Source: Thermoproteota archaeon (lineage in GTDB: Archaea; Korarchaeota; Korarchaeia; Korarchaeales; Korarchaeaceae). From it: DNA of 64,000 nt. The DNA lies in the NCBI GenBank assembly GCA_027492205.1, contig JAOZFN010000007.1, forward strand, positions 214,045-278,044, read 5' to 3'. Below are positions 4,414 through 53,851 of this stretch, in pieces; position 1 is the stretch's first letter, and each line of letters opens with the position of its first letter. Below the pieces are notes generated by a model. It ran no database searches and was not told the DNA's origin. It saw nothing but the letters and a program-made list of their open reading frames with translations. The position numbers and the translations under genes are program-made.

Positions 4414-4806
4414 GTGACTCGGCTGGATCCACTGGCGGACGCCCTGAGCGCCCTCACAAACGCCTCCAGGCTGGGGAAGCGTGAGGTCGTAGTCCCAATA
4501 GCCTCGAAGCTCATCGGGCAGGTGCTGAGGGTCATGCAGGAGGAAGGCTACATAGGCGAGTTCGAGTACGTCGACGACGGCAGGGCCGGCAAGTACCGGG
4601 TTAAGCTCATCGGGCGGCTCAACAAGGCGGCCGCTATCAAGCCAAGGTTCTCGGTCAAGAAGGACGAGTTCGAGGACTTCGAGCGGAGGTTCCTGCCCGC
4701 ATATAACGTCGGCGCCATAGTTGTGTCCACCCCCAAGGGCGTCATGACCCACCGGAAGGCCAAGGAGCTGGGCATAGGGGGGGTGCTCCTGGCGTACTTC
4801 TACTGA
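4414..4806 (+). CDS. rps8: Ribosomal protein uS8
   Basis: Small-subunit protein uS8 that binds helix 21 of 16S rRNA. N-terminal [15 protein letters not shown] and C-terminal [19 protein letters not shown] blocks are both clear. GTG 4414 gives a 130-residue protein beginning MTRLDPLAD, with GGGGGTG seven bases upstream; GTG 4405 would add three residues. Confidence 0.95.
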
Positions 4807-4822
4807 TGGAGGGTGGTGCCCA

Positions 4823-5380
4823 ATGCCTCATCCAAAGGTCGCCGTGGAAGTGCTCGTCAAGGAGGTCCCGATAGTGGAGGGGGTGGAGGTCTCCGTAGAG
4901 GGGGGCGTTATCAGGGTTAAGGGCCCCCTCGGAGAGCTGAGCAGGGAGTACGACTCCCGGATGGTGGATGTTGAGGCAGACCAAGAGGAGAAGAAGGTTA
5001 TTCTCAGGACCTACAACCCGAGGAAGTTTCAGAGGGCGTACATCGGGACCGTTGCGGCCCACATCAAGAACATGATGAAGGGCGTCACGGAGGGCTTCAA
5101 GAAGGAGATGATCGTGGTCTACGCCCACTTCCCCATCAAGGTGGAGGTGGACGAGAAGAGGAGGCTCGTGCTCATCCACAACTTCCTGGGGGAGAGGAGC
5201 CCCCGAGTAGCCAAGATAGTGGGAGACGTCAAGGTCACGGTCGAGGGAGACAGGATTCGCATTGAGGGCATCTCCAAGGAGGACGTCGGTCAGACCGCTG
5301 CGAACATCAGGCAGGCCACGAGAATCAAGAGAAAGGACCCGAGAGTCTTCATGGACGGGATTTACGTGTTGGAGGAGTGA
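4823..5380 (+). CDS. rpl6: Ribosomal protein uL6
   Basis: Large-subunit protein uL6, 185 residues, with the two tandem alpha/beta domains typical of the family. Signature stretches are VKGPLGELSREYDSR in the first domain and GISKEDVGQTAANIRQAT in the second. ATG start after the uS8 stop with GGAGGGTGGTG upstream. Confidence 0.97.
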   Translation: MPHPKVAVEVLVKEVPIVEGVEVSVEGGVIRVKGPLGELSREYDSRMVDVEADQEEKKVILRTYNPRKFQRAYIGTVAAHIKNMMKGVTEGFKKEMIVVYAHFPIKVEVDEKRRLVLIHNFLGERSPRVAKIVGDVKVTVEGDRIRIEGISKEDVGQTAANIRQATRIKRKDPRVFMDGIYVLEE

Positions 5381-5394
5381 GGGGGGTGAGCAAT

Positions 5395-5796
5395 ATGTCC
5401 GAAGAGGCCGCTAAGGAGCTCAAGTCCCTCAGGGAGAGGCTGAGGAAGAAGAAGCCGAGGTTCCTGAACCTGGCCAGGTGGTGGCACGAGGGCAGCGTCA
5501 AGAGCTGGAGGCGCCCGAGGGGAATCGACAACAAGCAGAGGCTCAAGCTGAAGAGCAGGCCCAAGCACCCGACCGTGGGCTACAGGAACCCTGAGGAGAT
5601 CCGCGGCCTGCACCCGTCCGGGAGGAGGCCCGTGATAGTCCACAACGTGAGGGACCTCGAGGAGGCCGCGGCTTCTGGGGAGCCGGTGATAGTTTACATA
5701 GCCTCCTCCGTCGGCAGGAAGAAGAGGGTCCAGATAGAGAGCAGGGCGCGGGAGTTGAACATGCCCATAGCCAACCCAATGCCGGGAGGGGAGTGA
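5395..5796 (+). CDS. rpl32e: Ribosomal protein eL32
   Basis: Large-subunit protein eL32, 133 residues, with the family core FLNLARWWHEGSVKSWRRP and VGYRNPEEIRGLHPSG. ATG 5395 is chosen because GGGGGGTG precedes it at a normal distance. GTG codons at 5377 and 5386 are in frame but would add an unconserved tail overlapping uL6. Confidence 0.95.
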   Translation: MSEEAAKELKSLRERLRKKKPRFLNLARWWHEGSVKSWRRPRGIDNKQRLKLKSRPKHPTVGYRNPEEIRGLHPSGRRPVIVHNVRDLEEAAASGEPVIVYIASSVGRKKRVQIESRARELNMPIANPMPGGE

Positions 5797-5797
5797 T

Positions 5798-6259
5798 TTG
5801 GCTGAGGAAGAGATCAGGATAAAGAGCCTGAACTACCAGAAGAGGCTCGCCGCCAAGATAGCTGGCGTCGGCCTGGACAGGGTCAAGCTCGTCCCGGAGA
5901 GGGCCGATGAGATCGCCCAGGCCATCACCAGGAGGGACGTTGAGAGGCTCATCAGGTCCGGGGCCATCGTGATAAAGCCCGCCAGGGGAGTGAGCAGGGC
6001 CAGGGTCAGGGGGAAGAGGAAGAGGAAAGGGCCAGGCAGCAGGAAGGGCGGCAAGTACTCGACTCTGAGCAGGAAGCAGAGGTGGGTGAGGAAGGTCAGG
6101 GCCCTCAGGAGGGAGCTCAGGAGGCTCAGAAACTCCGGAGTGCTCTCCAGACGGGAGTATCGGGAGTTCTACAGGAGGCTGTCCATGTACTCCTCGGTGA
6201 GGCACCTCAGATCGGCCCTCGAGAAGGAGCTGAAGCTCTCAGAGAGGGAGGCGCATTAA
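5798..6259 (+). CDS. rpl19e: Ribosomal protein eL19
   Basis: Large-subunit protein eL19, 153 residues. The conserved start of the globular part (LNYQKRLAAKIAGVG) is followed by the long basic helix GKRKRKGPGSRKGGKYS and the WVRKVRALRRELRRLR segment. TTG start one base after the eL32 stop, with GGGAGGGGAG upstream in the eL32 coding end. Confidence 0.96.
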   Translation: MAEEEIRIKSLNYQKRLAAKIAGVGLDRVKLVPERADEIAQAITRRDVERLIRSGAIVIKPARGVSRARVRGKRKRKGPGSRKGGKYSTLSRKQRWVRKVRALRRELRRLRNSGVLSRREYREFYRRLSMYSSVRHLRSALEKELKLSEREAH

Positions 6260-6260
6260 G

Positions 6261-6899
6261 TTGGCCAGGTCTGGCAGGTACAGAGTCAAGTTCAGGCGGA
6301 GGCGCGAGGGCAAGACCGACTACAGGAGGAGGCTCGCCCTCCTGAAGGGCGGCCTCCCCCGGCTCGTAGTGAGGAGGACGAACAGGCACATCATAGTACA
6401 GCTAGTCGAGTACTCCCCTCACGGTGATAGAGTTCTAGCGCACGCCTTCTCGAAGGAGCTGAGGGAGTTTGGATGGAGGTACTCCCTCAAGAGTACGCCG
6501 GCCGCCTACCTCACCGGCTACCTGGCCGCCCTGAGGGCTAAGCGGGCTGGCGTGGGGGAGGCCGTGTTAGACATTGGCAGGCAGGCCTCCACCAGGGGCT
6601 CGAGAATCTACGCTGCCCTCAGGGGGGCGGTGGACGCGGGCCTCCGAATTCCGCATGGGGAAGGGATCCTGCCGGACGAGAGCAGGATAAGGGGCGAACA
6701 CATCGCCGAGTGGGCCGCTCAGCTCAAGGAAGAGGATCCGGAGTTCTATCAGAGGCAGTTCGCCGAGTACCTAAAGACGGGCGCTGATCCCGAGCAGATC
6801 CCAAGCGCTTTCGAGGAGGTGCTCGAGGCCATAAAGGCCTCCGCGGGAGCTGGCGATGAGGGACAGACATTAATTGAGGGTGGGGAGGAGAACTCCTGA
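6261..6899 (+). CDS. rpl18: Ribosomal protein uL18
   Basis: 5S-rRNA-binding large-subunit protein uL18, 212 residues, with RREGKTDYRRRLALLK, RLVVRRTNRHIIVQ and the family block YLTGYLAALRAKRAG. The acidic tail after residue 165 is the archaeal extension. TTG start; its final base is shared with the uS5 ATG (TGATG). Confidence 0.96.
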   Translation: MARSGRYRVKFRRRREGKTDYRRRLALLKGGLPRLVVRRTNRHIIVQLVEYSPHGDRVLAHAFSKELREFGWRYSLKSTPAAYLTGYLAALRAKRAGVGEAVLDIGRQASTRGSRIYAALRGAVDAGLRIPHGEGILPDESRIRGEHIAEWAAQLKEEDPEFYQRQFAEYLKTGADPEQIPSAFEEVLEAIKASAGAGDEGQTLIEGGEENS

Positions 6900-11388: not shown

Positions 11389-12404
11389 TCTGCCCCCCCG
11401 GGGAGCCGGAGCCCGGGCGACTCCTCGTCAAGGAGGAGGCGGAGCCCGGACCCTACGGCTACCGACCCCGGGAGAGGCCCATCGACATGTACCTGGACTA
11501 CGGGGCCATCAACCTTGACAAGCCGTCTGGGCCGACGTCACACGAGGTCACTAAGTGGGTGAGGACCATCCTGGGGTTCCCGGGCAGGGTGGGGCACTGC
11601 GGGACCCTAGAGGCCGGTTGAGGCCGGGGAGACCCCAAGGTCACTGGCGTGCTTCCCATCCTGCTTGGGAAGGCCACCAGGCTCAGCAGAGTCGTCACCA
11701 GGGCTGGGAAGGAGTACGTCGGTGTGCTCTACCTGCACGGCGAGGTGGGGGACGAGGAACTCCGTAGGGCGCTGGAGATGTTCACGGGACCGATCTATCA
11801 GAGGCCCCCCGTCAAGGCGGCCGTCGCGAGGGACCTCAGGGTGAGGAGGGTCTGCGAGCTCGAGCTCTTAGAGCGGGAGGGAAGGTACGTCCTCCTCAGG
11901 GCGGTCGTCGAGGCGGGAACCTACATCAGGAGGCTCTTCTACGACATAGGGGAGGTCCTGGGCGTTGGGGGTAGCATGCGAGAACTCCGGAGGGTCAGAT
12001 CCGGGCCCATGCACGAGAGGGACTCGGTCACCCTCCAAGAACTCGAGGAGGCGTCGAGGGCTTGGCTAGAGGGGGACGAGGGACCTCTCAGAAGGGTGAT
12101 CCGGCCCATCGAGGAGGTTTTGAACTACGTTCCGAGGATCGTGGTCAAGGATACGGCCGTGGCGGCCATAACCCACGGCGACGCCGTCAAGGTGCCCGGA
12201 GTCGTCGCCGTCAGCGAGGGCCTGAGGAGGGGGAGGTTGGCCCTCGCCGTCACCCTCAAGGGTGAGATCATAGCGCTCGTGCGGCCCCTGATGGAGTCCT
12301 CGGAGATCCTGGAGGCCGACAGGGGGATCGCGGCCGAACTCGAGAGGGTGGTCATGCCGAGGGATCTCTACCCGCCCACTTGGAGGGGACGCAAATCGTT
12401 ATAA
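11385..12404 (+). CDS. cbf5: Cbf5 tRNA/rRNA pseudouridine synthase, interrupted by a probable 21-nt intron
   Basis: Catalytic subunit of H/ACA RNPs, also makes tRNA Psi55 (332 residues after removing 21 nt). N-terminal part runs LDKPSGPTSHEV to GHCGTL, and resumes as DPKVTGVLPILLGKAT, followed by GKEYVGVLYLHGEV and the C-terminal PUA domain with KDTAVAAITHGDAV. Between L (CTA 11607-11609) and the catalytic D (GAC 11631-11633) are 21 extra bases with an in-frame TGA at 11619. Removing exactly these restores the family motif GTLDPKVTG. Archaeal cbf5 is the best known protein gene with BHB introns. Alternatives are a frameless pseudogene or an assembly error. TTG start overlaps the eL14 stop. 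Confidence 0.9.
11610..11630 (+). other. Probable archaeal mini-intron in cbf5
   Basis: Twenty-one bases containing TGA split the codons for the catalytic Leu-Asp pair. Because AGA flanks both ends, four junctions give the same spliced product. A relaxed bulge-helix-bulge can be drawn: GACC (11603-11606) pairs with GGTC (11639-11642), GAGG (11610-11613) with CCCC (11633-11636, one A-C mismatch), and CC/GG inside, leaving CUA and AGA as bulges. The segment also holds two copies of GAGGCCGG ten bases apart. Not a textbook BHB, so moderate confidence. Confidence 0.55.
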
Positions 12405-19332: not shown

Positions 19333-19698
19333 TCAGCAGGTGACGTGGAAGAGGGCCGCCACCCTCCTCCCCTCTTTCACGAGCCTATTGTACTCCCGCA
19401 GAGCCTCACCCGTTCTCTTCGCGATCAGCTCCGCACCCAGCTTCCTGGCCGCCTCCTCGACGCCGACCAGTGGGAGCGCCCCGAACTGTCCGGTTCCCAC
19501 CACGATCACCTCGGGCCTGTAGTCCCTGAAGTAGGCGAGGATCTCGTCGCCCGTAAGCGGGGTGTGGCCGAACCTCGACCTGAGGGACTTGGAGAACTCC
19601 TTCCTCCTGGGGCGAACCTCGTCGGTCAGGACGACGTCGTGCCTGTACCGCTTGCCGTCTATCACTATGTAGCCGAAGCCCGTGGACTCCGCGCGCAT
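19333..19698 (-). CDS. Mth938-like domain protein (DUF498)
   Basis: 121-residue protein of the Mth938/NDUFAF3-like family; the biochemical role is not established. Seen are GFGYIVIDGKRYRHDVVL and the family signature PEVIVVGTGQFGALPL, then an acidic/basic helix and AALFHVTC. ATG 19698 is chosen: the TATA-like CTATTAAAGG (19723-19732, minus strand) is about 30 bases upstream, giving a leaderless transcript. Confidence 0.88.
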   Translation of the reverse strand: MRAESTGFGYIVIDGKRYRHDVVLTDEVRPRRKEFSKSLRSRFGHTPLTGDEILAYFRDYRPEVIVVGTGQFGALPLVGVEEAARKLGAELIAKRTGEALREYNRLVKEGRRVAALFHVTC

Positions 19699-19722
19699 TG
19701 TCCAAGATATTTTACACACGCA

Positions 19723-19732
19723 CCTTTAATAG
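19723..19732 (-). promoter_or_regulatory. TATA box of the Mth938-like gene
   Basis: CTATTAAAGG on the minus strand, about 30 bases before ATG 19698. Confidence 0.45.
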
Positions 19733-19749
19733 CAGCTTCGACTCGCCCC

Positions 19750-21232
19750 CTATCCCCCGCGGGCCGATCGCATCGCCCAGATGAGGAGGACAGCCACAGC
19801 TAACAGGGTCGCCATTAGTAAAGCGACCGATCGGGTGAGGCCACCCAGCATGGTACCGGATTTGGATCTCCACAAGGGACGAAGCCCCACTTCCGACAAG
19901 TTCTCCGGAGCCCAGAGGTAGTAGAGGTCCGATCGGGGGGAGAAGTACCTAAGTCTGGCTTCGCAGGGAAGACATCCAGCGAGACGGGGTGCAGGCCACT
20001 AGAGCAGAGGGCCGCGTCGCAGCCTAAAACAGCCTCGATTTCGGCCGAATCCCACGATATGATCCCTTCTGAGATTATCTTCGGCCTGCGTCCTGGGTGT
20101 GCAAACGCCACGGCGTGAACTCGGCCCTCATCGATGGAGACACCCAAAACGACGGCATCCTCTATAAGAAGCGACTTGAACCCTTTGAAACTGGTCGGCG
20201 TGGTTAGCATGCGGGTCTCGGCGGCCTCCGCGCTAGGAAGTTGAATGAACGCCGCCCTCTCCCGATGGATCGCCATCTCGATCATCGAGCCCGAAGGGCC
20301 CACCTGCGCCCGGAGGGGTCTCCCGGCCCTATCCAAGGCCAGGGCGAGGGATCTGGGGTCTCCTCCTGACAGCCAAGCGCTTCCCGCTGAGAGAACCAGT
20401 GAGTTCTCCGCGGCGGAGATGACCGACAAATTGACCGACCACTCGCCCTTGAGAATGCCTTCGGGAGCGGTGACCTCGTAACGTCCCCCGCCCGTGGAGC
20501 AGATCGCAGGCAGCACAAAGCATGTCACCTGAGCCTCCGGTAGACCAGCAGGCCACTCAGAGGTGGAGGAGTCAAACGATAGGACGAAGGAACTGACGAG
20601 GTCGTTGCCCCACTCCGAGGTGCCAGAGACGTATATTTTCCCCTGGGCAGAGCCGACCGAAGTCGCAGCGTCTCTCGCAGGGGTGTCAAAGGCCCACGCG
20701 CCTAAAACCCCCCGCCAGCGTCGACTAGGAGCACCAGCGCGCTTTCGTTGACCCCATAGCCACAGCTACCAGACACCACCAGAATACCATCTTAAAAGGT
20801 GGAAGACCGCAAATTCGCCTCAGATACTGCCTTAATCCATTTTAGGCTTCCATCCCATCCTAGATGAATTATTAAGGACTGATAAGTCTCGTAGGCGTTA
20901 CCAATAATGAATACGCCATCTGCGCTGAGGGACAGCGAGGTCGGGACGAGGCCTCCTCTGATGGATATCTGCCTAGACTACATCAATCGACCCTCAGAGT
21001 CAAAGCAAGCAACTACTGCCTCAGGACGAACTTCCACATACTCTTTCAAAAGAACACAGGTAGAACCTTGAAAGAACTCAGCCCCTACAGGGACAGTTCT
21101 TGCATCCAACTCCCGAGCCGTTTTTGACGAGACCGACATAGCCGCTGATCCGAGCAAAATGACGGATAGTATGATTGAAATCCTTAGTTTTCTTCCTGGA
21201 TTTCTCCCAAGGATTACTAACCTCTCCAGCAC
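19750..21232 (-). pseudogene. Decayed gene for a secreted, membrane-anchored beta-propeller-like protein
   Basis: Reading the minus strand from GTG 21232 gives a signal-peptide-like start (LRISIILSVILLGSAAMSVSS), then repeats of the type DGVFIIGNAY, DGSLKWIKAV, DGILVVSG and GKIYVSGTSEWG, and a C-terminal anchor (VALLMATLLAVAVLLIWAM) ending in TAG at 19750-19752. The frame is broken four times: TAG at 20978-20980 (probably from TGG), TAA at 20792-20794, a missing base in the run at 20704-20713, and a missing base in the G-run at 19935-19940. Sequence before and after each break fits one protein of about 490 residues. Homopolymer errors could explain the two frameshifts but not the stops. Confidence 0.6.
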
Positions 21233-21677
21233 CTACCGTTCCCCCATTCGCTCAATCTCTCACTAACCCTAGCCCTCGTTGTGACGTAAACAGAGTAGAA
21301 TGAAAGCTCAGCGTATGCGTGTCCTTCAACATAGACGATATTACCACTTACCAAATTGCGGTGATCTTTGGAAGTGACTACTTTCCAACCTGGTTTAATT
21401 ATTTGTACGCTATGTCGTGTGTCGTATCTGCTCATGAATCGATATCCTCCGGGAAATTCATAGCCCTCCACTTCAATTACAAGGGTTAGATAACCCACTT
21501 TATCCCAGTACTAGTATATTGGTGTTCTACATTGCAGCTGATAAGAGAAGGGATCCGGCACCAGATATTCGGGTTGTGTACTGTTTAAGTTGCTGTAGAC
21601 GCTTTGAGTGACGGAGAGGTGGATAAAGCAAGAAGGAATACTAGAAGTGCGAGTATCAAAATCTTGGTCCTATTCAT
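21217..21677 (-). pseudogene. Decayed gene for a small secreted protein
   Basis: ATG 21677 opens a clear signal peptide (MNRTKILILALLVFLLALS) that runs into a stop after 30 codons. In the next frame the sequence continues as SVYSNLNSTQPEYLVPDPF, is interrupted by TAG at 21511-21513, and goes on as YWDKVGYLTLVIEVEGYEF to GNIVYVEGHAYAELSFYSVY. The remaining intact piece (21217-21498) has a GTG start. It overlaps the start of the decayed propeller gene by 16 bases, so both were probably one operon. The region is AT-richer than its surroundings. The remaining 21678-21788 bases show nothing further. Confidence 0.5.
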
Positions 21678-21788
21678 CGAGTTTTGATTTCTAAGTGAAG
21701 TACTTTTAAGTTTAACGTCGCGCAGTGTATTTTTGGCACGACACGCGAGCAATCAAGTCTTGGTTTTTTACCATTGAATATTACACAT

Positions 21789-23444
21789 TTATAGTTTTGG
21801 AATTTTAAGTTCGAATGCGGCGACGGGCGTTTTGATCTTGTTCAGCTCCAGCACCTCCGGGTTGACCTCGCCCACAACCCCGGCGACCTCTCCTGATATG
21901 AGTATCTCAGCGGTCCTGCCCGGCAGGAGCGTCGGGTACCTAGCTGGCCTGACCTCGAACTCGACCGCCAGGTTCCTCAGGAGCGCGTAGAGGTCGGCCT
22001 GTATGTCCTCGAATCCCACCTCGCTGTCCGCTATGGCGGCGCAGACCCTCCTCTCGTCCCTCGCTCCCGTCTCGGCAGACTCGTCGGGTATCACCACGTC
22101 GCCCACCTCGAACACCTTCTGCGGGAGGGGCGCGCCCGTGTTCCTGGCGAGGAACGCGATCACGCCCGGCAGGAGCGAGTCCCTGAGAACTGAGTAGGAG
22201 GCCGTCACTGGATTCGCCACCTCGACCACCGGGGATTCCGGCCTGAGGACCCTCTCGAACAACGCCTCCCTGCTCGTCATCACGTAGTTCAGTATCTCCT
22301 GGTAGCCCAGCCCGATCATCAGCGTCCGCACGAGGGAGGAAGCCTTCTCGATTGGGTGTCTGCAGCCGAATGTGGATACCCAGGCGGGGAGTTCTGGCTC
22401 GAGCCTGTCATAGCCTACGGCCTGCGCGACCTCCTCTACCACATCGACCGGGTGGAGGAAGTCGAACCTGTAGGGAGGGATCAGCACCCTCACCGAGTCC
22501 CCCTTAACCTCCGCCCCCAGTCTGACCCTCCTCAGCAGGTCAGCGATCTCCTCCGGAGTCAGGTTGAGGCCCATCACGGAGTTCACGTACTTCACCTCCA
22601 CCGTCAGCTCCGACGTGGAGAGGTCGGGCGTGATCAGCTCCCCTGGCTCTCCCGGATATCTGACCACTACCGTCCCTATCCTGCCCCCCCTCTCGGCCAG
22701 CGCCGTGGTGATCAGCACGAGGGCCTGCGAGATGGCCCTCAGGTCGGGGCCCGTCACGTCGATGAACAGGTTCCGCGTGGACTCGGTCACCCTCGTCAGC
22801 TCCCCGTTCAGGATGGGCGGAACCGAGAGGACGTCGCCCTTCGAGTCGCGGAGCACGGGGACCACCGAGCCATCGCCAACCAGGTGAGTGTACTCCCTGC
22901 CCTTCTCGGTCCGGCTGAGCATCTCCCTCGCCGTCATCTCCTCCGCCTCTCCGAGAGGAACGAACCTCACTCGGTCCGAGGGCTCTGCACCGTAGGAGAT
23001 GGGGGGCTCGATCACGTCGGCGTTGTGGATCCCCATTGACATCTTTCGCCTGTCCCTCCCCAGCGTCTGGTGGAGCTTCTCCTGAGCCCTCATAAGCGCC
23101 ACCAGGGCATCCTCGTCGAGTTCCACACCCTCCACGACGGCGCCAACCACGTACGGCCTTACCCGCTCGACCGAGGGGTCCACGCGGACCTTCCATCCGG
23201 AGTCGAAGGTGTCGTACCTTGGGAGCCCCGCCTCCTTGCCCATGATGCCCTTCAGCGCCCTCGCAATCCCCTCCACGGTCACGAGGTCAAGCCTGTCGGG
23301 CGTCACCTCCAGTTCGAGCTCCCCCTCCTCCTCGCCCTCGAAGCCCACCTTCACCCGCGCCAGGAGGTCCCCGAGGGACTCCATCGGGATGGGTTCTCCC
23401 ACGAGCTTGCACAGGTCCGAGTAACTGACCGATATCACGGGCAT
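21789..23444 (-). CDS. pheT: Phenylalanine-tRNA ligase, beta subunit
   Basis: Beta subunit of archaeal PheRS, 551 residues. Seen are the N-terminal VTPDRLDLVTVEGIARALKG, the B5-like region with VRVLIPPYRFDFLHPVDVVEEVAQAVGYD and the C-terminal catalytic-like module (MIGLGYQEILNYVMTSREA). It follows pheS directly (one base gap) on the same strand. The 3' end runs into AT-rich sequence. Confidence 0.95.
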   Translation of the reverse strand: MPVISVSYSDLCKLVGEPIPMESLGDLLARVKVGFEGEEEGELELEVTPDRLDLVTVEGIARALKGIMGKEAGLPRYDTFDSGWKVRVDPSVERVRPYVVGAVVEGVELDEDALVALMRAQEKLHQTLGRDRRKMSMGIHNADVIEPPISYGAEPSDRVRFVPLGEAEEMTAREMLSRTEKGREYTHLVGDGSVVPVLRDSKGDVLSVPPILNGELTRVTESTRNLFIDVTGPDLRAISQALVLITTALAERGGRIGTVVVRYPGEPGELITPDLSTSELTVEVKYVNSVMGLNLTPEEIADLLRRVRLGAEVKGDSVRVLIPPYRFDFLHPVDVVEEVAQAVGYDRLEPELPAWVSTFGCRHPIEKASSLVRTLMIGLGYQEILNYVMTSREALFERVLRPESPVVEVANPVTASYSVLRDSLLPGVIAFLARNTGAPLPQKVFEVGDVVIPDESAETGARDERRVCAAIADSEVGFEDIQADLYALLRNLAVEFEVRPARYPTLLPGRTAEILISGEVAGVVGEVNPEVLELNKIKTPVAAFELKIPKL

Positions 23445-30974: not shown

Positions 30975-31751
30975 TCACACCCTTCTGAGAACTGCGATCA
31001 CTCTTCCCCTCTCCGGTGGCGAGTTCACCTCGTCCTCGGGATCAAAGGACAGGTACCACGCGACCGGTTCCAGCCCAAACCTCCCTGGCAACTCTGACAG
31101 ATCGGCTGGGGACATCCTCCGAGACGGCGACTCGTCGAGGAGTTCGAACGACTTCCCTCGCTCTCTGACGACCAGCCTAAGCCTGTCCAGCACGCGCCCT
31201 CTTGGGAGCAGGTTCACGACCTCCCACTCTGCCCTCACAGTGATCCCGTCTCTCTCCTCTTCCCACTCCTCCCGGTCTCCGGGCGACGGGTTCAGGGCCG
31301 CGTCTATCACGTAGACTCCCCCTGCTCTCAGCGCCTTGGAAACGCAAGAGTAGTGCAACTCTAGCTTCTCGTCTGTGAGCAATGCGGATACCGTGTTGAT
31401 GGCCGAGTATGCCGCGTCGAATCCTGATATGTGGAAGTCGGTCATATCTGCTCTGAGAACCACAACTGGTACCCCAAGGCGCCGGGCCTTCCTCGCGCAG
31501 AATTTCGCCATCTCGGGGCTTATATCGAGTCCAACGCAGTAGAAACCCCTCTTGGCCAGCTCGATTAATATCCTCCCAGTGCCGCATCCCAGCTCCAACA
31601 CTCTCCGCACGCTTCCTGCGTGTCTCTTGAATACCTCACAGTAAAAGTCGGCTTCTCGAGTCGGATCACACCCGAAGGCTATGTCATAGTAGAGCGGGTG
31701 ACTGTACACTCCACTCAAGCTCTGCGGTAGTTCTTTAGATACTCGCGCCAC
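30975..31751 (-). CDS. SAM-dependent methyltransferase, copy 1
   Basis: 258-residue class I methyltransferase. SAM-binding motif I is VLELGCGTGR, then GLDISPEMAKF, RADMTDF and the post-motif VSALLTDEKL. The C-terminal RFGLEPVAWYLSFDPEDEV is shared with copy 2 at 35716-36468; the two proteins are about two-thirds identical by eye over their whole length. Its GTG start overlaps the preceding membrane protein gene by 17 bases, so it is the last gene of the ABC-transporter operon. Substrate unknown. Confidence 0.85.
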   Translation of the reverse strand: MARVSKELPQSLSGVYSHPLYYDIAFGCDPTREADFYCEVFKRHAGSVRRVLELGCGTGRILIELAKRGFYCVGLDISPEMAKFCARKARRLGVPVVVLRADMTDFHISGFDAAYSAINTVSALLTDEKLELHYSCVSKALRAGGVYVIDAALNPSPGDREEWEEERDGITVRAEWEVVNLLPRGRVLDRLRLVVRERGKSFELLDESPSRRMSPADLSELPGRFGLEPVAWYLSFDPEDEVNSPPERGRVIAVLRRV

Positions 31752-32239: not shown

Positions 32240-33052
32240 CTAGGTCACCTCGAGCACTCTGGAGAAGTAGCTGTAGGCTGCAACAATCATAGGGCTCGCT
32301 AGGGCCATAGAGAGCGCTAAGGACCGATAGGTCATCTGCTCAAATAGGAGAGCTGCTGGAGAATCTGGCTTGACTGTCATAGCCGCGGCAGCTAACGCGG
32401 CTCCGGATCCCAGCAGGGAGGTGGTAGGATTTGATGCGGCTAACAGGAGAGAGATAGTCCGAATCGCGTGATCTAGGAGCATTGTTGAGACTATTGTCAC
32501 GATGGAGTTCCTTGAGACCACAGCCACTAGGGTCGCTATGGCCGTGGGAACTGCTAAGGAGGCCAAAAACCCGGCGACGAGCAGGGGAAAGTTCCTCAGG
32601 ATAAAGGCGGTGGAGGAAGGCGCGTAAGATGGGCAGGACGCCAGCAGCGAGAAGAGCACTGAGATCAAGTGAGCCAGCACCAAAAGTGCTGACATGGCTA
32701 AGAACTTCACCCCAAATAGACATCCCCTGCTCAAGGGCAGGGAGAGCGAGTATCTGAGGTACCCTCCCTCACACTCTCGGGCGAAGACTATGGCGGCAGC
32801 GGATGAAACTAGCGTTGCATTGAGGATTCCCCAGGTCAGCGATCCGTAGAGGGCGGCACACGCGCAAGCCCGGACTAGCGATGACTCGAAGATCTCCCTC
32901 AGGAAGACCTGTGAAGATAGTCCAATGCGTATCCCTCCTGTCATGGCATGCCAACAAGATGCAAGAGTTAGTATCGCGACGTAAGCCTCAAGTATCGGAA
33001 ACCTGAGGAGACCTCTCAATTCCCACATCAGCTGACTGAGAGAGCCCTTCAT
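32240..33052 (-). CDS. ABC-2-type transporter permease
   Basis: 270 residues with six predicted membrane segments, the ABC-2 exporter layout (AAIVFARECEGGYLRYSLSLPLSRG is the usual loop after TM2). It overlaps the ATPase gene by four bases (ATGA) and is certainly translated with it. Likely exports or inserts a peptide or other small product; the neighbouring small secreted protein is a candidate. Confidence 0.8.
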   Translation of the reverse strand: MKGSLSQLMWELRGLLRFPILEAYVAILTLASCWHAMTGGIRIGLSSQVFLREIFESSLVRACACAALYGSLTWGILNATLVSSAAAIVFARECEGGYLRYSLSLPLSRGCLFGVKFLAMSALLVLAHLISVLFSLLASCPSYAPSSTAFILRNFPLLVAGFLASLAVPTAIATLVAVVSRNSIVTIVSTMLLDHAIRTISLLLAASNPTTSLLGSGAALAAAAMTVKPDSPAALLFEQMTYRSLALSMALASPMIVAAYSYFSRVLEVT

Positions 33053-33966
33053 GATTTATCCCCCTTCACTACTACTTCAAAAAGCTCATCCAGCGACAAT
33101 TCTCTCAGCTCAACCCCCGCTGGGACTTCTCCTCTCTCGGCCCGTGCGCATAGCCAAGACAGAAGTTCCACAATCTCGCTTGAGATCACTCCGTACCTCC
33201 CGGGCCTCGAGACTGCAAGCCTAGCTGAGAAACCAACTTCAAGCTCCTGGCGGGCAGATTCGCTTACCAAAAGCACCCACCTGCCCAAGCTCTCCTTCAA
33301 CTCGTCGAACCTACCGCTGAGTATTAGTCGCCCCTCTCTAAGGAAGAGGATTTCTGTAATAATGGGCTCTAACCCGCTCAGTGCGTGAGTCGATATTATG
33401 AAGTTAACCCCCGAACTCCTGTGAAGCCTGGAAATCAGTCTCAAGACACGTGAGCGACCAATTGGATCGAGATTAGAGGTTGGTTCATCCATCAAAACAA
33501 GTTCGGGGTCTCCGATGAGCGCGAGAGCTATCTCGAGCCTCTGCTTCATTCCGGCCGAGTACTCTCCCGTCTTCCTACCTATGTATTCTGAGCATCCGGT
33601 CAGTTCAGCGACCCTCTTGACCTCTCCTACTACGTCAGAGACTCCCTTCATCTTGGCGGCCCTCTCCAACAGCGACCTTCCAGTAGCCCAAAGCGGGAAG
33701 GAAGGATTCTCGTGAACGATTCCAACTCTCCGCATTAGCGAGACCCTCTCTCCTTCGTGCGTGGGATCTAACCCCAGTACCCTGACCTCTCCACGATTCG
33801 GCCTCAATAGGCCAGCCAGGATTCTGAGGAGCGTCGTCTTGCCTGCGCCGTTCGGCCCAATTAGGCTGTGAATCCCGCGATCGAGCGCAAAACTCACGGA
33901 CTTCAAGGCCCTTGTGCGGCCGAAGGACTTCGTCAGGTTGCTTGCAACTACTAACCTGTCAGCCAA
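33049..33966 (-). CDS. ABC transporter ATP-binding protein
   Basis: 305 residues. Walker A LIGPNGAGKTTL, Q-loop IVHENPSFP, signature YSAGMKQRLEIALAL, Walker B ELVLMDEPTSNLD and switch His in STHALSG are all present. The first ~220 residues are the nucleotide-binding domain, the last ~85 an accessory tail as in ABC-2/CcmA-like exporters. It pairs with the permease gene downstream. Confidence 0.92.
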   Translation of the reverse strand: MADRLVVASNLTKSFGRTRALKSVSFALDRGIHSLIGPNGAGKTTLLRILAGLLRPNRGEVRVLGLDPTHEGERVSLMRRVGIVHENPSFPLWATGRSLLERAAKMKGVSDVVGEVKRVAELTGCSEYIGRKTGEYSAGMKQRLEIALALIGDPELVLMDEPTSNLDPIGRSRVLRLISRLHRSSGVNFIISTHALSGLEPIITEILFLREGRLILSGRFDELKESLGRWVLLVSESARQELEVGFSARLAVSRPGRYGVISSEIVELLSWLCARAERGEVPAGVELRELSLDELFEVVVKGDKS

Positions 33967-35715: not shown

Positions 35716-36468
35716 CTACACCTTCTTGAGAACGGCGATCACCCTCCCCCTCGCCGGTGGAGCGCCCACCTCAGCCTCGGGATCAAAAGACAGGTACCAC
35801 GCAACCGGCTCTAGTCCGAACCTCCTTGGCAACTCTGACAGGTCTCCCAAGGATAGCCTGCGGGACGGCGACTCGTCCACGAGCTCGAACACCCTCTCAC
35901 GCTCGTTCACGACGAGCTTCAGCCTGTCCAGCACCTGCCTCTCGGTGACGACGTCTAAGACCTCCCACACGGCCCTCACCGACAGTCCGTCCCTCTCCTC
36001 CTCCCACTCCTCCCGGTCCCCGGGCGAGGGATTCAGCGACGCGTCAACCACGTACACCCCTCCCCTCCTCAGGGCTCTCGAGACGGAGAGATAGTGGGAC
36101 ATCAGCGCTTCGTCGGTGAGCAGAGCGGAGATCGTGTTGACGGCCGAGAAGGCGGCATCGATTCCGGTGAGGCTGAACTCGGTCATGTCAGCCCTCACCA
36201 CGTCAGCCGGCGCCCCCGACTGGCGGATCCTCCCCGCGGCGAATCTCGCCATCTCGGGGTTGATGTCGAGGCCCACGGAGTAGGGACCCCTCCTAGCGAC
36301 TTCGGTCAAGAGGCGTCCGGTGCCGCACCCAAGCTCCAGCACCGTCCTAACGCCCCCCGCGTGTCTCTCAAAGACCTCCAGATAAAACTCGACCTCTAGC
36401 GTCGGATCCCAGCCAAAGGCGACGTCGTAGTAGAGGGGGTGACTGTACACCTCGCTGTGACCGCGCAC
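35716..36468 (-). CDS. SAM-dependent methyltransferase, copy 2
   Basis: 250 residues, closely related to copy 1: VLELGCGTGR, GLDINPEMARF, RADMTEF, VSRALRRGGVYVVDASLNPS and RFGLEPVAWYLSFDPEAEV. GC content is like the chromosome, unlike the module between the two copies. GTG 36468 start; the TATA-like TCATAAAAAG at 36499-36508 on this strand is 30-40 bases upstream and may serve the divergent MFS gene too. Confidence 0.85.
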   Translation of the reverse strand: MRGHSEVYSHPLYYDVAFGWDPTLEVEFYLEVFERHAGGVRTVLELGCGTGRLLTEVARRGPYSVGLDINPEMARFAAGRIRQSGAPADVVRADMTEFSLTGIDAAFSAVNTISALLTDEALMSHYLSVSRALRRGGVYVVDASLNPSPGDREEWEEERDGLSVRAVWEVLDVVTERQVLDRLKLVVNERERVFELVDESPSRRLSLGDLSELPRRFGLEPVAWYLSFDPEAEVGAPPARGRVIAVLKKV

Positions 36469-36539: not shown

Positions 36540-37709
36540 TTGGCCGACAGGTGGAAGGTGCTCATCGCGGCCTTCCTCAGGGACCTGAGCTGGAGCATGA
36601 CCTTCCTCTACGTGGCGTTTGAGACCTACGAGAGGGGCTCGGTCCTGGAGTACGCGCTCATCAGGGGGGTCCCCGCCCTCGCCTACTTCCTCGGGACGAG
36701 GATATATGGGTCGCTGAGCGATCAGATGGGAGCCAGGAAGCCGCTTATGCTCGCGGCCGCGGCGCTGAACCCCCTCTTCCCCCTAGCGATCGCGCTGACC
36801 GGACCGTCCGCCTGGCTGCCGATAGTGGTGGCCTGGTACTTCTTCCTCTCGGAGGAGCCCGTGATCATAGCGTTCCTAGCCGACAGGAGCCCGGGAGGCG
36901 CGGCCGCCGGCGACTACTTCATGGCCATGGAGGTGGGCTTCACGGTTGGCGTGCTGATCGGGGGATTCATGACAGAGTACTTAGGCCTTAAGACGACCCT
37001 CCTGAGCGCTTCAGCCCTGTCGAGCCTCGCCGTCATGGCGCTAGCCGCAGTTCGAGAGGGGGTAAAGCCTAGGAGGCCCGACTTTGTAGGCGCGGTCAAG
37101 TCGGCGCTGGGGATGAGGTGGCCTGGAGACACGGGAAGGATCGTGCCCTCTCTCCTACTCGCAAGCTCCGCCATCTCCACGTTCTACGTCGCCTTCTCCC
37201 TCAAGGTGTTCGAGGCCTCCGGCAGGTCGAACGCGGTCATGGGGGTATTGGTGTCCGCGGCCGGCCTCACCGGCGCTGTCATGGGGCCCATCTACGGGAG
37301 GATCGTGGATAGAATCGGTGGGAGGAGGGCCTTCACGGCCTCATGCCTCCTATACGCGCTCTACTTCGTTGTTGGAGCCGTGACGAGAGACTTCAAAGTC
37401 CTGGCCGCCCTGATGGTGATCCCCTTCTTCGCCCTCCACTACTCGGCCAGGAACGCGCTGGCGATCTCGCTAGCCCCGGGTGAGAAGGCGGCGGCCAGCT
37501 CCGTGACCTCGGCGGTGGGTTCCATATCCGAGGCGCTCGGAAATGGGTTGGGGGGCATCATAATGGGATCCCTGGGGATGAACGCGGCCATGTGGATCGC
37601 CGCCGCGCTCAGCGCGGCGGCCGCCCCCGTCCTCGAGGTGGCCTGCCTCAGGAAGTCCGGCGGCCTTGAGCGTGAGCGCAGGGGCAGCGGCGAGCGACTG
37701 AAGCTTTGA
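36540..37709 (+). CDS. Major facilitator superfamily transporter 1
   Basis: 389 residues, about twelve membrane segments in two halves. The MFS loop-2/3 signature appears as GSLSDQMGARKPL in the first half and GRIVDRIGGRRAF in the second. TTG 36540 (MADRWKVLIAAFLRD) is preferred because the TATA box at 36499 predicts transcription starting near 36530; an in-frame GTG at 36483 would place the TATA box inside the gene. Substrate unknown. Confidence 0.8.
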   Translation: MADRWKVLIAAFLRDLSWSMTFLYVAFETYERGSVLEYALIRGVPALAYFLGTRIYGSLSDQMGARKPLMLAAAALNPLFPLAIALTGPSAWLPIVVAWYFFLSEEPVIIAFLADRSPGGAAAGDYFMAMEVGFTVGVLIGGFMTEYLGLKTTLLSASALSSLAVMALAAVREGVKPRRPDFVGAVKSALGMRWPGDTGRIVPSLLLASSAISTFYVAFSLKVFEASGRSNAVMGVLVSAAGLTGAVMGPIYGRIVDRIGGRRAFTASCLLYALYFVVGAVTRDFKVLAALMVIPFFALHYSARNALAISLAPGEKAAASSVTSAVGSISEALGNGLGGIIMGSLGMNAAMWIAAALSAAAAPVLEVACLRKSGGLERERRGSGERLKL

Positions 37710-38008
37710 TAGGGGCACCTCGAAGAGACGGTTGGGGGGATCAGCAGGCCAACAGACCTCATCTCCTTAAGATCAGCGGAGTAACTCCACTTCACGCCCC
37801 TCGGCGGCTTGCCGTCGAGTCCTAAAATAGGCTCACCTGATGCTGAGGGAGGGGGCCCAAGTAAATCCCGGCCCCGCAGAAAAATGGACGCGGCTGAGAG
37901 GGTGAAGGCTGCCGAGGATCTCTGCGGTTATCGCCCCCGGTTCGGGCATCCAGAGGATCTGGTCCCGGGGGCGCCCGCCATGGTTGCGCTGTCAGGCCGC
38001 AACACGAG
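37710..38008. other. 300-base gap with a possible gene remnant on the minus strand
   Basis: Between the MFS gene and the broken VapC gene. On the minus strand, bases ~37870-37725 read SGEPILGLDGKPPRGVKW then SYSADLKEMRSVGLLIPP, which looks like protein sequence but has no start or family match. Nothing else recognised. Confidence 0.25.
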
Positions 38009-38455
38009 CTACTGCTTGAGGTACTCGTCCAAGAATACCACATCAACGCCGAACGGCTCTCTCTTAAGTTCCCTCTCGAGTTCCCTCTCACGCTTGGCGA
38101 AAACGGCCGCCCCTTGGATGAGTTCGGCCAGGGCTATGACATAGCAGTCTGCCAGAGAGATGGATCTCTCGCACTTGATGCCCCCAGCCCTTAAGTCTAG
38201 CGAGCAGTCTTCGGCCACCTCCACGGCCCCGCCCTCCCTGAGGGACGTCACAAGGTCGCTGGCGACGTCCCTTCCTCGGAGCCTGCACACCACATAGTAA
38301 GTCTACGACAGGACTATTCTGGGGACGTAGACCTCCCTGCGGGAGAACAGGACGCACTCCTCCACAAGGTCGGCCAAATCCTCCCCCAGCAGGTACGCCA
38401 GGAGCACGCTGGTATCAATCGAGAGCCTCTCGGGCAGATCTCCGCAGACGTCCAA
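38009..38455 (-). pseudogene. VapC-like PIN toxin inactivated by a nonsense codon
   Basis: From TTG 38455 the frame reads RLSIDTSVLLAYLLGEDLAD, VYVPRIVLS, then TAG at 38303-38305, then TYYVVCRLRGRDVAS, CERSISLADCYVIALAE and FLDEYLKQ. PIN proteins have Glu at exactly the position of the stop (E-T-Y-Y), one of the catalytic acids, so GAG has probably become TAG. The other acids (Asp in SIDTS, Asp in LADC) remain. The frame is otherwise intact over 149 codons. It overlaps the antitoxin gene by 41 bases. Confidence 0.7.
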
Positions 38456-38699
38456 GTCTCCCCACCTCTTGAGCTCTCAGTTCTGATATCAGAGCCTCCA
38501 CGGCCTCTTTCTTCCCTCTCAGGATCCCCTTCATGGATCTCAGCCTCTCTCTCGCCACCTTAACGCGCCTCCTATCCTCGAGAAGGGTCATTATAGCCTC
38601 ATCAAAGCTGACCCTCCTGCCGAGCCTTGCCTGCAGCTCAGATGCAAACTTCAGAAGCTCCCTCTTGGTTTTCTCGCTGACCTGGATGGTGGTGGGCAT
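38415..38699 (-). CDS. VapB-like antitoxin of the broken VapC
   Basis: 94 residues. TTIQVSEKTKRELLKFASEL, then SFDEAIMTLL, is a ribbon-helix-helix DNA-binding domain; the rest is a basic/charged tail. Intact although its toxin gene carries a stop. ATG 38699 is probably leaderless (TATA at 38723-38732), and palindromic repeats between TATA and start codon look like its own operator. Confidence 0.75.
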   Translation of the reverse strand: MPTTIQVSEKTKRELLKFASELQARLGRRVSFDEAIMTLLEDRRRVKVARERLRSMKGILRGKKEAVEALISELRAQEVGRLGRLRRSAREALD

Positions 38700-38716
38700 C
38701 TATAGAATCTATAGAT
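38699..38716. promoter_or_regulatory. Palindromic operator repeats before vapB 2
   Basis: TCTATAGA (38699-38706) and ATCTATAGAT (38707-38716) are both perfect palindromes, in tandem, between the TATA box and the start codon. This is where an antitoxin would repress its own operon. Confidence 0.5.
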
Positions 38717-38722
38717 CTTACA

Positions 38723-38732
38723 GCTTTTATAG
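38723..38732 (-). promoter_or_regulatory. TATA box of vapB 2
   Basis: CTATAAAAGC on the minus strand, about 25-33 bases before ATG 38699. Confidence 0.55.
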
Positions 38733-38780
38733 ATTGAAGCCGCGCCGGGCTCATCCCCGGCTCCGGCCAGGGGCCGCGAG

Positions 38781-46402: not shown

Positions 46403-47269
46403 CTACCTCAGACCCTTCCGCTTGGCGATCGCGTCGAGGTGCGAAGTCCAGACGTCGTACAGCTCGGCGGGAATCTGGCCCCCGGCCTCCTCCTCATCGA
46501 CCACCTTCCAGTACCTCCCGCACCGCTCGCAGAAGTACAGCCTGAACCTCCTGTCCTCTCCTAGTGTGTAGAAACCGAGCGTCTGACCGTCCTCATTACC
46601 GCAAAATGGGCACTTGATCCTCTGGAATGGCCACTCCGTCCCGCACACCGAACACTTCAGGTACAGTTTCCTACCCTCGCCCCTCATGTAGCCTACCCTA
46701 GTATGGCTCCCGCACACGGGACATCTTCCCTCCCGCCACCCCTCAAAGCCTATTTCACCCGCGATGGCGGAGGAGAGTGATCTAAGGAGCGTCTGGGCCA
46801 GCCAGAGGGAGAGAGTCTCCATTAGGGGGGCCTCAACACCCAGCCTCTCAGATTCCCTCTCCACCAGCTCGCCGCCTCCTGAGAGGAGACTCTCGGCGAG
46901 ACCTCGGATGTCAAGCCTCTTGGATTTGATCGCCCCCTCTACTATGGCTACATGAGACTCTAGGTCCCTTCTATGCCTCCTGATAACCTCCAGGATCTTG
47001 AGGGCAATCATCTCCCATGCTGAAGGAGGCAGCTCTGGCAAATCCACTAGGTCAAGTAGGGACCTTCCCCCTCCGACCCTTCGGGCGGCCTCCCTCACCC
47101 TCGGCAAAGTGGGTTCCAGGGCCGGTGAGACCACCTCCCGGGCCAACTCCCTCTGAACTGCCAGTATATCGACTAGGAAATCGAGCGCCTCCCTGAGGCG
47201 CGGCCTCTCAATTGCTATCCTGTCCGCGGCATATTTCACACCCATGTCACGCTTGGACGAGTCGGTCAA
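46403..47269 (-). CDS. fdhE: FdhE, formate dehydrogenase accessory protein
   Basis: 288 residues. The C-terminal rubredoxin-like zinc region has paired cysteines: GRCPVCGS, LKCSVCGTEW, IKCPFCGNED and YFCERCGRYW, the hallmark of FdhE. The first ~175 residues are helical. FdhE binds formate dehydrogenase catalytic subunits before export. Last gene of the fdh cluster. TTG 47269 adjoins GGAGG. A TATA-like CACTTTTTAAC at 47311-47322 (minus) could give it a separate promoter. Confidence 0.9.
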   Translation of the reverse strand: MTDSSKRDMGVKYAADRIAIERPRLREALDFLVDILAVQRELAREVVSPALEPTLPRVREAARRVGGGRSLLDLVDLPELPPSAWEMIALKILEVIRRHRRDLESHVAIVEGAIKSKRLDIRGLAESLLSGGGELVERESERLGVEAPLMETLSLWLAQTLLRSLSSAIAGEIGFEGWREGRCPVCGSHTRVGYMRGEGRKLYLKCSVCGTEWPFQRIKCPFCGNEDGQTLGFYTLGEDRRFRLYFCERCGRYWKVVDEEEAGGQIPAELYDVWTSHLDAIAKRKGLR

Positions 47270-47336
47270 CCTCCATTCCCCCGGCGAGGAACTCTGGGCC
47301 TAGGCGGGGGCGAGTTAAAAAGTGGGGAGGGGGGCT

Positions 47337-48206
47337 TTATGCCACCTGGCCTGCATAGAGCACTGCATATCTGAGGATGTAGCCCCCAATCAGCACTAGG
47401 GCCGCGGTTGTCAGTACCAGCGCTGGGCTGGGGGCCTTTTCTGGCGTCCTGAGCGAGATTGCCGGGAGGAGTATCTCTCCGATGATCAGACCTACTGCCA
47501 CGAATCCCAGCCAGAACAGGACCCCGTTCACGCTGGTTAGAGACGCTATTGCCCCCCTAGCAGGCGTCGGGATTGTCGCGACGTAGAGCAGTGCGACCAA
47601 GAGCTCTATCACCCCGACGATCAACTCCACCTTGGACAGGCCTGCCGGGCTCAGCCCGACATCCTCGCCAGTACGGTGTACCAGGTACATGAGGACGGCG
47701 TATCCCGTCGCGATCCCCGACACGGTGAAGAGAACGGGGAGGGCCCAAGGCCTCCAGAGAGATTGCCTGGAGAACCCCAAGAGTATTCCCGTGTAGGCCG
47801 CCGTCATCAGGCCGAACATGGATCCTAGAGCTCCCAAGAGGTCCTTGATTCGGTTGAGGGCGGACCTAAGGGGTTTAAGTGGCTCTCCTCCAAAGTCGGA
47901 GAGTCCGAGCCAGTAGGCCAGCCCCAGCACCGTGAATATCACTATTACCCAGGCGCCCCAGGCCATGGGAGACTCCATGTGAGGCGCCAGCATTATCCTG
48001 AAGGCGTGTTCAGGCCTCCCCAGGTCGGCCAGAAGGAGGATGAGTCCGATAGCCATTGAGACCCAAGAGACCAGCGCGCCGAGCTTTGATGTGCGCCTGA
48101 TCCCTCCGCGAGTGATCGCGTCAAGGGCTGCGGTCGAAGCGAAGAGGCCGCCAGCGAGCCCCCCGAGGAACAGGTACGTCGCTATCAGTATTCCCCACTC
48201 TACCAT
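47337..48206 (-). CDS. NrfD/PsrC-like membrane subunit of formate dehydrogenase
   Basis: 289 residues with eight predicted membrane segments in the NrfD pattern (ILIATYLFLGGLAGGLFAST; LADLGRPEHAFRIMLAPHME). It would pass electrons from the ferredoxin subunit to quinone without haem. ATG 48206 is preferred over GTG 48215 because GAGGTG is six bases upstream. It overlaps the end of fdhB. Confidence 0.88.
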   Translation of the reverse strand: MVEWGILIATYLFLGGLAGGLFASTAALDAITRGGIRRTSKLGALVSWVSMAIGLILLLADLGRPEHAFRIMLAPHMESPMAWGAWVIVIFTVLGLAYWLGLSDFGGEPLKPLRSALNRIKDLLGALGSMFGLMTAAYTGILLGFSRQSLWRPWALPVLFTVSGIATGYAVLMYLVHRTGEDVGLSPAGLSKVELIVGVIELLVALLYVATIPTPARGAIASLTSVNGVLFWLGFVAVGLIIGEILLPAISLRTPEKAPSPALVLTTAALVLIGGYILRYAVLYAGQVA

Positions 48207-48211
48207 CGCAG

Positions 48212-48967
48212 TCACCTCACCTTGACTTCCTGGGCTGCCGGGGCAGCCTTACCCCTCGAGACCCCCCAAGCGGCCAGTCCGGCCACAGCAGCCATGGCCA
48301 GAGCCAAGAGGCCCTTGTCTATCCTCTCCCGCGGAGTCTCGGGCCCAAGCCTCGGTAGGCCGGCGTCGGACGGTGCAGTCTCCTTCGGGAAGACGTAGAT
48401 CCAGGAGGTCCCTCCTCCCTCCTCGAGCCCGTAGACCGGATGCCCCTTCGCCCTGTACTCCTCCGCCCTGGCCCTGATCTCGTCCAGGCTTCCGAAGATT
48501 AAGGCATCCGTGGGGCAGGCGGCGACGCACGCCGGCTCGAGGCCCTCCCTGACCCTGTCCGCGCAGAAGGTGCACTTCCTTATCGTCTTGTCCAGCGGGT
48601 CAAAGTGGGGGACGCCGTACGGACACGCCTCGACGCAGTATCTGCACCCAATGCACTTCTTGGAGTCCCAGAGCACTATTCCGTCCTTATCTTTGTGGAG
48701 CGCCCCCGTGGGGCAGGCGGCGACGCACGCCGGCTCGACGCAGTGCATGCACTGCCTCTTCACAAAGTACCATCTGAGGCCATCGCCCTCTCCCATCTCG
48801 ACGAACCTGACCACAGTCCAGACGTTTGAGGTGAGGTCTGGCGGGTTTGTGTAGTCTGGAGAGAACTCTGTCGACTCAGCCTCGGTACCATTCCAGACGT
48901 GACAGGCTACCTGACAGGCCCGACACCCTATGCACCTGTCTACGACTACGAGGACCCCGTATTCCAT
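48212..48967 (-). CDS. fdhB: Four-cluster ferredoxin subunit of formate dehydrogenase
   Basis: 251 residues with four [4Fe-4S] cysteine sets: CIGCRACQVACHVW, CMHCVEPACVAACPTG, CIGCRYCVEACPYG and CTFCADRVREGLEPACVAACP. A C-terminal hydrophobic segment (LLALAMAAVAGLAAWGV) anchors it. No signal of its own, so it is probably carried out by the Tat signal of FdhA, as in FdnG/H. ATG 48967 with GGAGGTG six bases upstream. Functional symbol by role; NrfC/HybA-like by sequence. Confidence 0.9.
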   Translation of the reverse strand: MEYGVLVVVDRCIGCRACQVACHVWNGTEAESTEFSPDYTNPPDLTSNVWTVVRFVEMGEGDGLRWYFVKRQCMHCVEPACVAACPTGALHKDKDGIVLWDSKKCIGCRYCVEACPYGVPHFDPLDKTIRKCTFCADRVREGLEPACVAACPTDALIFGSLDEIRARAEEYRAKGHPVYGLEEGGGTSWIYVFPKETAPSDAGLPRLGPETPRERIDKGLLALAMAAVAGLAAWGVSRGKAAPAAQEVKVR

Positions 48968-48972
48968 CACGA

Positions 48973-51900: not shown

Positions 51901-52620
51901 GAACCCCACGGTCCCCGCCAGGCCCGCCACGGTAGTCGAGTGGCATCTCCTAGCGTCGTGGTCTATGTTGTAACTCCCCATCATAGTGGCCATCTTCTTG
52001 ATCAGATAGGCCTCTTCGTTGGTCAATTTGGCCCCAGCTTCTATCATAACGGGAAATTGCTTCCCGTTGTAGTAGAAGCCATCCTCCTGCCGCGGATCCA
52101 ATCCAGCCTCGTCTATTATCTCCTTGATCTTCCTAGCAACAAAGGAGATGGCTTCATCCCAGGTTACTGGCTTCCAGACTGGCTTGTATTTCTCAATAAT
52201 CTTCCTCAGATCGGCCTGGTTCCTAACAGCCTTCAGCTCATCGACCGTCGGCTTAGGGTTGACCCTTATCATAGGAGTCTTGATGCGCCTGGGGTTGTAC
52301 TCCCCAAATAGCTGGATTGATGCCTTACCTTTGGGGCACAGCTTGCCCTCGTTGATGGGGTTATCAGGGTCTCCCTCTACGTAGACGACGCTGTCTCCGA
52401 CCTTGTAGAATATGATGCCGCATCCAACCGCGCAGTAGGCGCACACCCCCCTGACGGTCCTCGTCAGGCGAAGGTCCTTTTCCATGGCCCTTATCTCTTC
52501 CTGGCTTGGAGAGGCGATCGCCAGGACCAGCTTGGAGGAGTCGCCAAGCAGCAGGGGAACCGAAGAGAGGCCAAGCACCTTAAGGAAGTCTCTCCTCTTG
52601 ACGACAACGGACTCTGTCAA
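48973..52620 (-). CDS. fdhA: Formate dehydrogenase catalytic subunit, Cys-containing, Tat-exported
   Basis: 1215-residue molybdopterin (Mo or W) oxidoreductase. N-terminal Tat signal KRRDFLKVLGLSSVPLLL, then the [4Fe-4S] site CAYCAVGCGIIF...CPKGKA. The active site reads DARRCHSTTVAGLAG, matching the Sec-His pair of FDH-N with Cys in place of Sec; GGNPAENHPVSMRH and VVDPRYNRTASKSD follow as in FDH-N. The C-terminal cofactor domain ends with TNRLTEHFHTGQ and VSGIYMD. It is about 200 residues longer than typical FDH-N, with extra sequence around 900-1010 including a CPLC pair. TTG start behind AGGTGGTG. Confidence 0.9.
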   Translation of the reverse strand: MTESVVVKRRDFLKVLGLSSVPLLLGDSSKLVLAIASPSQEEIRAMEKDLRLTRTVRGVCAYCAVGCGIIFYKVGDSVVYVEGDPDNPINEGKLCPKGKASIQLFGEYNPRRIKTPMIRVNPKPTVDELKAVRNQADLRKIIEKYKPVWKPVTWDEAISFVARKIKEIIDEAGLDPRQEDGFYYNGKQFPVMIEAGAKLTNEEAYLIKKMATMMGSYNIDHDARRCHSTTVAGLAGTVGFGAQTQHFIDTQFPAVYLIFGGNPAENHPVSMRHTLRGREERGLKLVVVDPRYNRTASKSDIFAFFRPGSDLAFLLYILHYAFWERNPPVDQLNTFREFVERFNVDIDEIAEFKEIAKDYTAEEVSKITGIPPDKLRLIAQTYVENSGVTTNFQKFASIQWAMGQTQHHIGTQITRMSALIQLTLGNMGFPGGGLNPYRGHSNVQGTTDLCILSHILPGYIKQPSSTLQIRVYQDWKNQGFPDAWNWEIPEWAGSAFGPNERGKVNSTKILWSWWFHNWRRFELTWGIFVGTDPEDDPQNGTVISDFPFGAGYTENTWWQGALFDDVIKAAIIMAENPAVSNADTLTEYMALASLKLLVVVDLWETETATFADVLLPGAVQYEKYGSITNSSRWIQWQDRVASPPGDAKPDLWIMTRLWEALKAEGAVRLPSQVYGKYRERVLIRNPYREGEFVQLYERKISPFMDYYTGRLPDEDYSEVDPELVYREIDLAVDLYNGMYDWVDRRPLAKRRIAFLRGESDIDGILDRTYLMHKDWGWSWPKNVRILYNLWTLSKTLGRRVTYEFPSGKYAVGPELDGKTVEVTGETGEIRDAVSGEWRPAFIPGHNFVVGKFYKRAWSGVADVFTGAVDPRSLLSGRVVGKFVFFHEDGGYEIKTADELGIVCPLCESFYYDQEVVMAGKANYKKPYFKGTKDLGDGRVVKYVGFYDWRRVRDAFTSELAQLADQMGLKGAIIEMKRRYGEWYAYPSPDNPSEIWAWDMRYPIHYEPAESICKELAVKYPSMAWRRGENFNLISPPKEDFRELADTVNLTPEEMHVPEGAVVVTATTNRLTEHFHTGQLTRNLPLLAELFPEPFVEIPKPLADSLGIKSGDIVEVGNNRNRIFLRAMVTNRVPKMAIGPDGRECYVVNLPWHWGWAGAHSTFAVVNTVSGIYMDTVTTMQETKTFLAYIRKASPADYDYRAEGEPTSWAAPSRRR

Positions 52621-53809: not shown

Positions 53810-53829
53810 GGAGGACCGGCCTCGGTGGG

Positions 53830-53851
53830 GGAAATAAGGGAATCGATTCCC
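53830..53851 (-). promoter_or_regulatory. fdhD promoter with perfect 14-bp palindrome
   Basis: GGGAATCGATTCCC (53838-53851) is a perfect palindrome immediately upstream of a minus-strand TATA (CTTATTTC, 53830-53837). The TATA is about 25 bases before GTG 53809. It sits in the 44-base gap after hypE, so fdhD may be controlled separately from the hyp genes. Confidence 0.45.

Follow-up and report, generated by a model that had tools for sequence, protein, structure and literature searches.

The window, a stretch of 64,000 nucleotides from a korarchaeal contig numbered from its first letter, carries two broken genes on its minus strand, flanked by intact neighbors. Upstream lies pheT (21789–23444) and downstream, at 19333–19698, a gene that we take to belong to the Mth938-like family, both also on the minus strand. 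The broken gene next to the latter, gene B (19753–21232), encodes a secreted, C-terminally anchored protein of propeller type, as judged from its frames, its codon usage and a profile match. Its coding signal is spread over five pieces of translated frame that run from 21232 to 19753, beginning with a GTG whose frame is read from 21232 and ending with a TAG at 19755–19753. In between, the sequence holds an in-frame TAG at 20978–20980, an in-frame TAA at 20792–20794 and two changes of frame, one at 20704–20713, at a C6/A4 stretch (letters of the plus strand) with a run of six, and one at 19935–19940, at a G6 run (again plus-strand letters). The first-pass annotation had read one coding signal through all four sites and had placed both frame changes at six-base runs of G or C, and both statements were borne out. 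Two stops occur in the 175 codons of 20708–21232, against a mean of 9.0 when the same bases are shuffled (P 0.0045), and none in the 257 codons of 19941–20711, where shuffling gives a mean of 7.6 (P 0.0001). The codon-usage scan agrees, as it ranks the predicted frame above the other two forward frames along most of the length; the scan is ambiguous at about 21240–21120, 20820–20760 and 20040–19980, which lie near the starts or ends of pieces. Reading the translations by eye, we also found a signal-peptide-like segment at the N-terminus and a hydrophobic segment at the C-terminus, in line with the signal peptide and anchor proposed earlier. With two stops and two frame changes, gene B has the several independent disabling lesions expected of a pseudogene.

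Directly upstream, at 21217–21677, lies gene A, a second broken gene for a secreted protein, recognized from its frames, its codon usage and its stop counts against shuffles. It opens with an ATG at 21677 and a signal-peptide-like start, and this open reading frame stops at a TAA at 21587–21585. The coding signal then resumes in another frame, is interrupted by a TAG at 21513–21511 and ends at 21217; across the 122 codons of this second frame there is a single stop, where shuffled sequences average 7.5 (P 0.0035). No long run marks the frame change of gene A, which together with the stops gives this gene, too, several independent disabling lesions. About 30 bases upstream of the ATG, at 21702–21710 on the same strand, we read by eye a stretch that we take to be TATA-like. 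The 3′ end of gene A shares 16 bases with the start of gene B, an arrangement suggestive of a former operon. By sequence comparison, no convincing relative of gene A is detectable in a scan of GTDB contigs or in 24 genomes of the family, where the single match besides gene A itself was weak (E 0.11).

Both genes fall within a block that is missing from the genome of the sister species (G001), the sole other genome of the genus that was compared. The flanks of the block are 96.9% identical to G001 over 10.9 kb and 97.4% identical over 9.1 kb by BLAST, and homology ends at 21808 and restarts at 19690, so the block is missing there. From BLAST of both loci and from the sequences at the edges, we delimited the absent segment at 19699–21808, with a left edge between about 21808, where BLAST homology ends, and about 21730, and a right edge at about 19690–19698; its size is thus some 2.0–2.1 kb. 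The uncertainty on the left comes from the spacer of G001, which by eye has a short similarity to 21730–21790. In G001, the pheT and Mth938-like open reading frames are 18 bp apart, and the latter is 90% identical to its ortholog in the window. The Mth938-like gene also follows closely behind pheT in five further genomes of the family (G002, G004, G006, G008, and G010), of which G006 matched only with the end of that gene. In the remaining 17 of the 24 genomes with pheT (the window's own genome aside), a peptidase gene was matched in the fetched flank in nine and neither gene in eight. Within 19500–22000, terminal inverted repeats were looked for and not found, nor did any direct repeat of at least 12 bases join the block edges, as a target duplication would; the edges thus lack the marks of a transposon-type insertion. 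The simplest reading of these alignments is that the block was gained in the lineage of the window. The stretch singled out by the first-pass annotation is real, while the view was incomplete, in that the second broken gene directly upstream, the edges of the surrounding insertion and its absence from the sister had been overlooked. Likewise, calling the pseudogene young holds in the sense that, with flanks about 97% identical, the insertion would postdate the divergence from the sister, unless the block was lost there; the age is bounded rather than fixed.

The base composition of the block is uneven. The GC content is 0.44 in gene A and 0.57 in gene B, compared with 0.62 in the window, which makes the gene A end of the block AT-rich. 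GC3 rises from 0.42–0.52 at the 5′ side to 0.64–0.72 toward the Mth938-like gene, against 0.81 in 14 open reading frames of the window. Two of these 14 have a GC3 near 0.6 themselves, and low GC3 or composition alone is therefore no proof of a foreign source.

The first-pass annotation had proposed searching the repaired protein of gene B for intact relatives, and these were found for its N-terminal third. Pieces 2 and 3 match a 444-aa secreted protein in another genome of the family, G023 (E 5.8e-4; E 3e-5 as a single comparison). When that protein was used as the query, 17 of 101 genomes gave a match at E ≤ 0.01, including the block described here (E 0.0019). From four of these 17 genomes, chosen for length and for a C-terminal segment, we built a profile, A1, of intact secreted and anchored propeller-type proteins of about 450 aa found in this archaeal family (open frames of 444 aa in G023:C100, 455 in G016:C1, 453 in G013:C96, and 453 in G017:C33, the G017 row starting 10 codons inside its open frame). 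Profile A1 matches the N-terminal third of gene B across both stops, at model positions 6–164 of 453, with an E of 2.4e-6 over the whole genome; this match is partly circular, and neither it nor the match of the G023 protein to the block is fully independent, since the first member of A1 was found with pieces 2 and 3. Against A1, these two pieces score 16.6 bits, and 500 shuffles reach at most 4.6, while pieces 1, 4, and 5 do not rise above the shuffle level. Through its N-terminal third, gene B is thus distantly related to the anchored propeller group. In a set of 29 genomes of the phylum, a read-through of pieces 1–3 gave weak matches in two apart from its own genome.

The C-terminal half, by these searches, is without a convincing relative in GTDB contigs, in 61 genomes or in viral contigs. 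For piece 4, the longest piece at 257 aa, the GTDB scan gave 29 pattern hits of which none was confirmed, the 61 genomes returned only piece 4 itself, the viral contigs returned nothing, and matches at E ≤ 10 in 24 family genomes were short or weak, none of them convincing. NCBIfam gave no convincing match, and solved structures gave at most weak kelch and unrelated ones. A structure modeled from the single sequence of piece 4 is all-beta, with a mean pLDDT of 33, too low to mean a fold.

That gene B was either a young pseudogene or a real gene damaged by sequencing had been left undecided, and the comparison with G001 favors the former: intact flanks, stable runs and the empty site in G001 all speak against error. 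Under the second reading, both genes would be real and working, and the lesions would be mistakes in the consensus of the assembly. In its favor, gene B changes frame twice at six-base runs of G or C, a usual place for sequencing error, and of 20 G/C runs (six bases or longer) set against their G001 counterparts, one is likewise the shorter in the window. The other 19 are of equal length, and 18 runs of six or more lie within 14 intact open reading frames of the window. Moreover, the frame change of gene A is away from long runs, and homopolymer error does not give in-frame stops in two adjacent genes, whereas here there are three (TAG, TAA, and TAG) besides the TAA that follows the signal peptide of gene A. 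Over 26.6 kb of flank, we counted 14 indels relative to G001, most of them intergenic when set against the list of open reading frames; one of 9 bases, close to the end of a ribosomal-protein-like open reading frame, leaves that frame unshifted, one shortens the G001 copy inside the open reading frame at 30975–31751, and the only one that shortens the copy in the window falls within the last five codons of the open reading frame at 33049–33966. With flanking genes intact and 19 of 20 runs equal, sequencing error is unlikely as the full explanation. Decay is favored, with error possible at one site or another.

We made several other observations elsewhere in the window. The open reading frame at 30975–31751 and one at 35716–36468 (both on the minus strand) are similar to each other, with about 75% DNA identity by G001 cross matches. 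At 37694–38733, the G001 match is reversed relative to its neighbors, at 81–84% identity, as the inversion of a small segment would produce, and over 46743–63775 identity drops from about 97% to 65–88% in separated matches, a sharp divergence toward that end. At 11490–11720 (plus strand), a gene that we take to be Cbf5/TruB-like is interrupted within its conserved GTL-DPKVTG motif by about 21 extra bases, among them a TGA. The comparison with G001 lists no indel at this site, so the sister seems to share the extra bases. They may perhaps be a very short mRNA intron of the kind reported for archaeal Cbf5 (PMC2738675); folding gave no support (z 0.0).

Taken together, the locus is very probably a cluster of two pseudogenes in a lineage-specific insertion of about 2 kb between pheT and the Mth938-like gene, first gained and then decayed. 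It is quite unlikely that the block is instead ancestral and was cleanly lost from G001, with old pseudogenes in it. Such a history gains some room from a genus comparison that rests on one other genome; against it, the two neighbors are close together in the five further family genomes, a convincing relative of piece 4 is missing from all 24 genomes, and repeated clean losses would be needed if a pseudogene had long resided between flanks that are 97% identical. Even more remote, to the point of being very hard to credit, is the notion of expression piece by piece, or through recoding, or through phase variation at the runs. A surface-type protein whose frame changes where homopolymer runs occur would suit it, as would another propeller gene in the genome that is similarly interrupted (see below); yet gene B is interrupted by both a TAG and a TAA, and runs of six are short for such switching. 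Nor was there any sign of TAG reassignment at PheT of three relatives (G009, G011, and G022), where the TAG that had seemed to lie inside the gene is its ordinary end.

Under the preferred reading of gain and decay, the block would have been acquired once the lineage had separated from the sister species, by gain rather than loss, and would be foreign in origin. Gene A would have encoded a small exported protein, and gene B an exported one, anchored in the membrane at its C-terminus, with a presumed former role at the surface and an N-terminal third that belongs with propeller-type surface proteins, of which intact members of about 450 aa occur in a sister genus. Both genes would then have decayed through stops and small indels, the two frame changes of gene B lying at homopolymer runs, and the decay may have preceded or followed the insertion. 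Ordinary translation would give no full-length product of either gene, and both have probably lost their function. For annotation, neither gene A nor gene B should be called an intact protein or several short ones.

At E < 1e-3, profile A1 finds three propeller loci in the genome, of which gene B and one on contig C3 are broken and one on C17 (738 aa) is open. The C3 gene, a secreted propeller-type gene on the minus strand of L093 (G000:C3:40001–50000) at about 4781–6425 (L053/L093), has several frame changes and a stop; its consecutive pieces, in three frames, match an uninterrupted frame of 624 aa in G018 with 61% identity over 191 aa, and the stop lies inside one of the matching pieces. In the sister genome, neither the pieces of this gene nor those of gene B have a match; at the C3 locus, 811 bases of flank match and a different gene follows there. 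It is possible, if rather doubtful, that in this lineage secreted propeller-type surface genes are acquired again and again and then inactivated, a pattern that, if true, would be in keeping with surface proteins being under selection, from viruses for instance. Two of three loci is a small number, so we claim no trend; two broken propeller genes in one genome are a modest lead on the turnover of archaeal surface proteins.

The acquisition and decay seen here look like the ordinary kind, and their value lies in a small and well-bounded archaeal case in which the sister genome displays the empty site. Among known systems, the likeness of piece 4 to Kelch repeats is weak, with a match to Pfam Kelch_2 at residues 17–53 (E 0.0047) whose 17.3 bits are under the curated cut-off of 21.3. 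The C3 gene resembles gene B in being a secreted propeller type and interrupted, and differs in protein class, in place and in its GC of 0.68. A further parallel is with the anchored propeller proteins of about 450 aa. These are intact, whereas gene B is broken, its C-terminal half is unmatched, and the NPC motif, invariant in the four members of A1, is absent from its piece 5; they share with gene B a signal-peptide-like start, DG...W and V.G repeats, a C-terminal hydrophobic segment and a similar total length.
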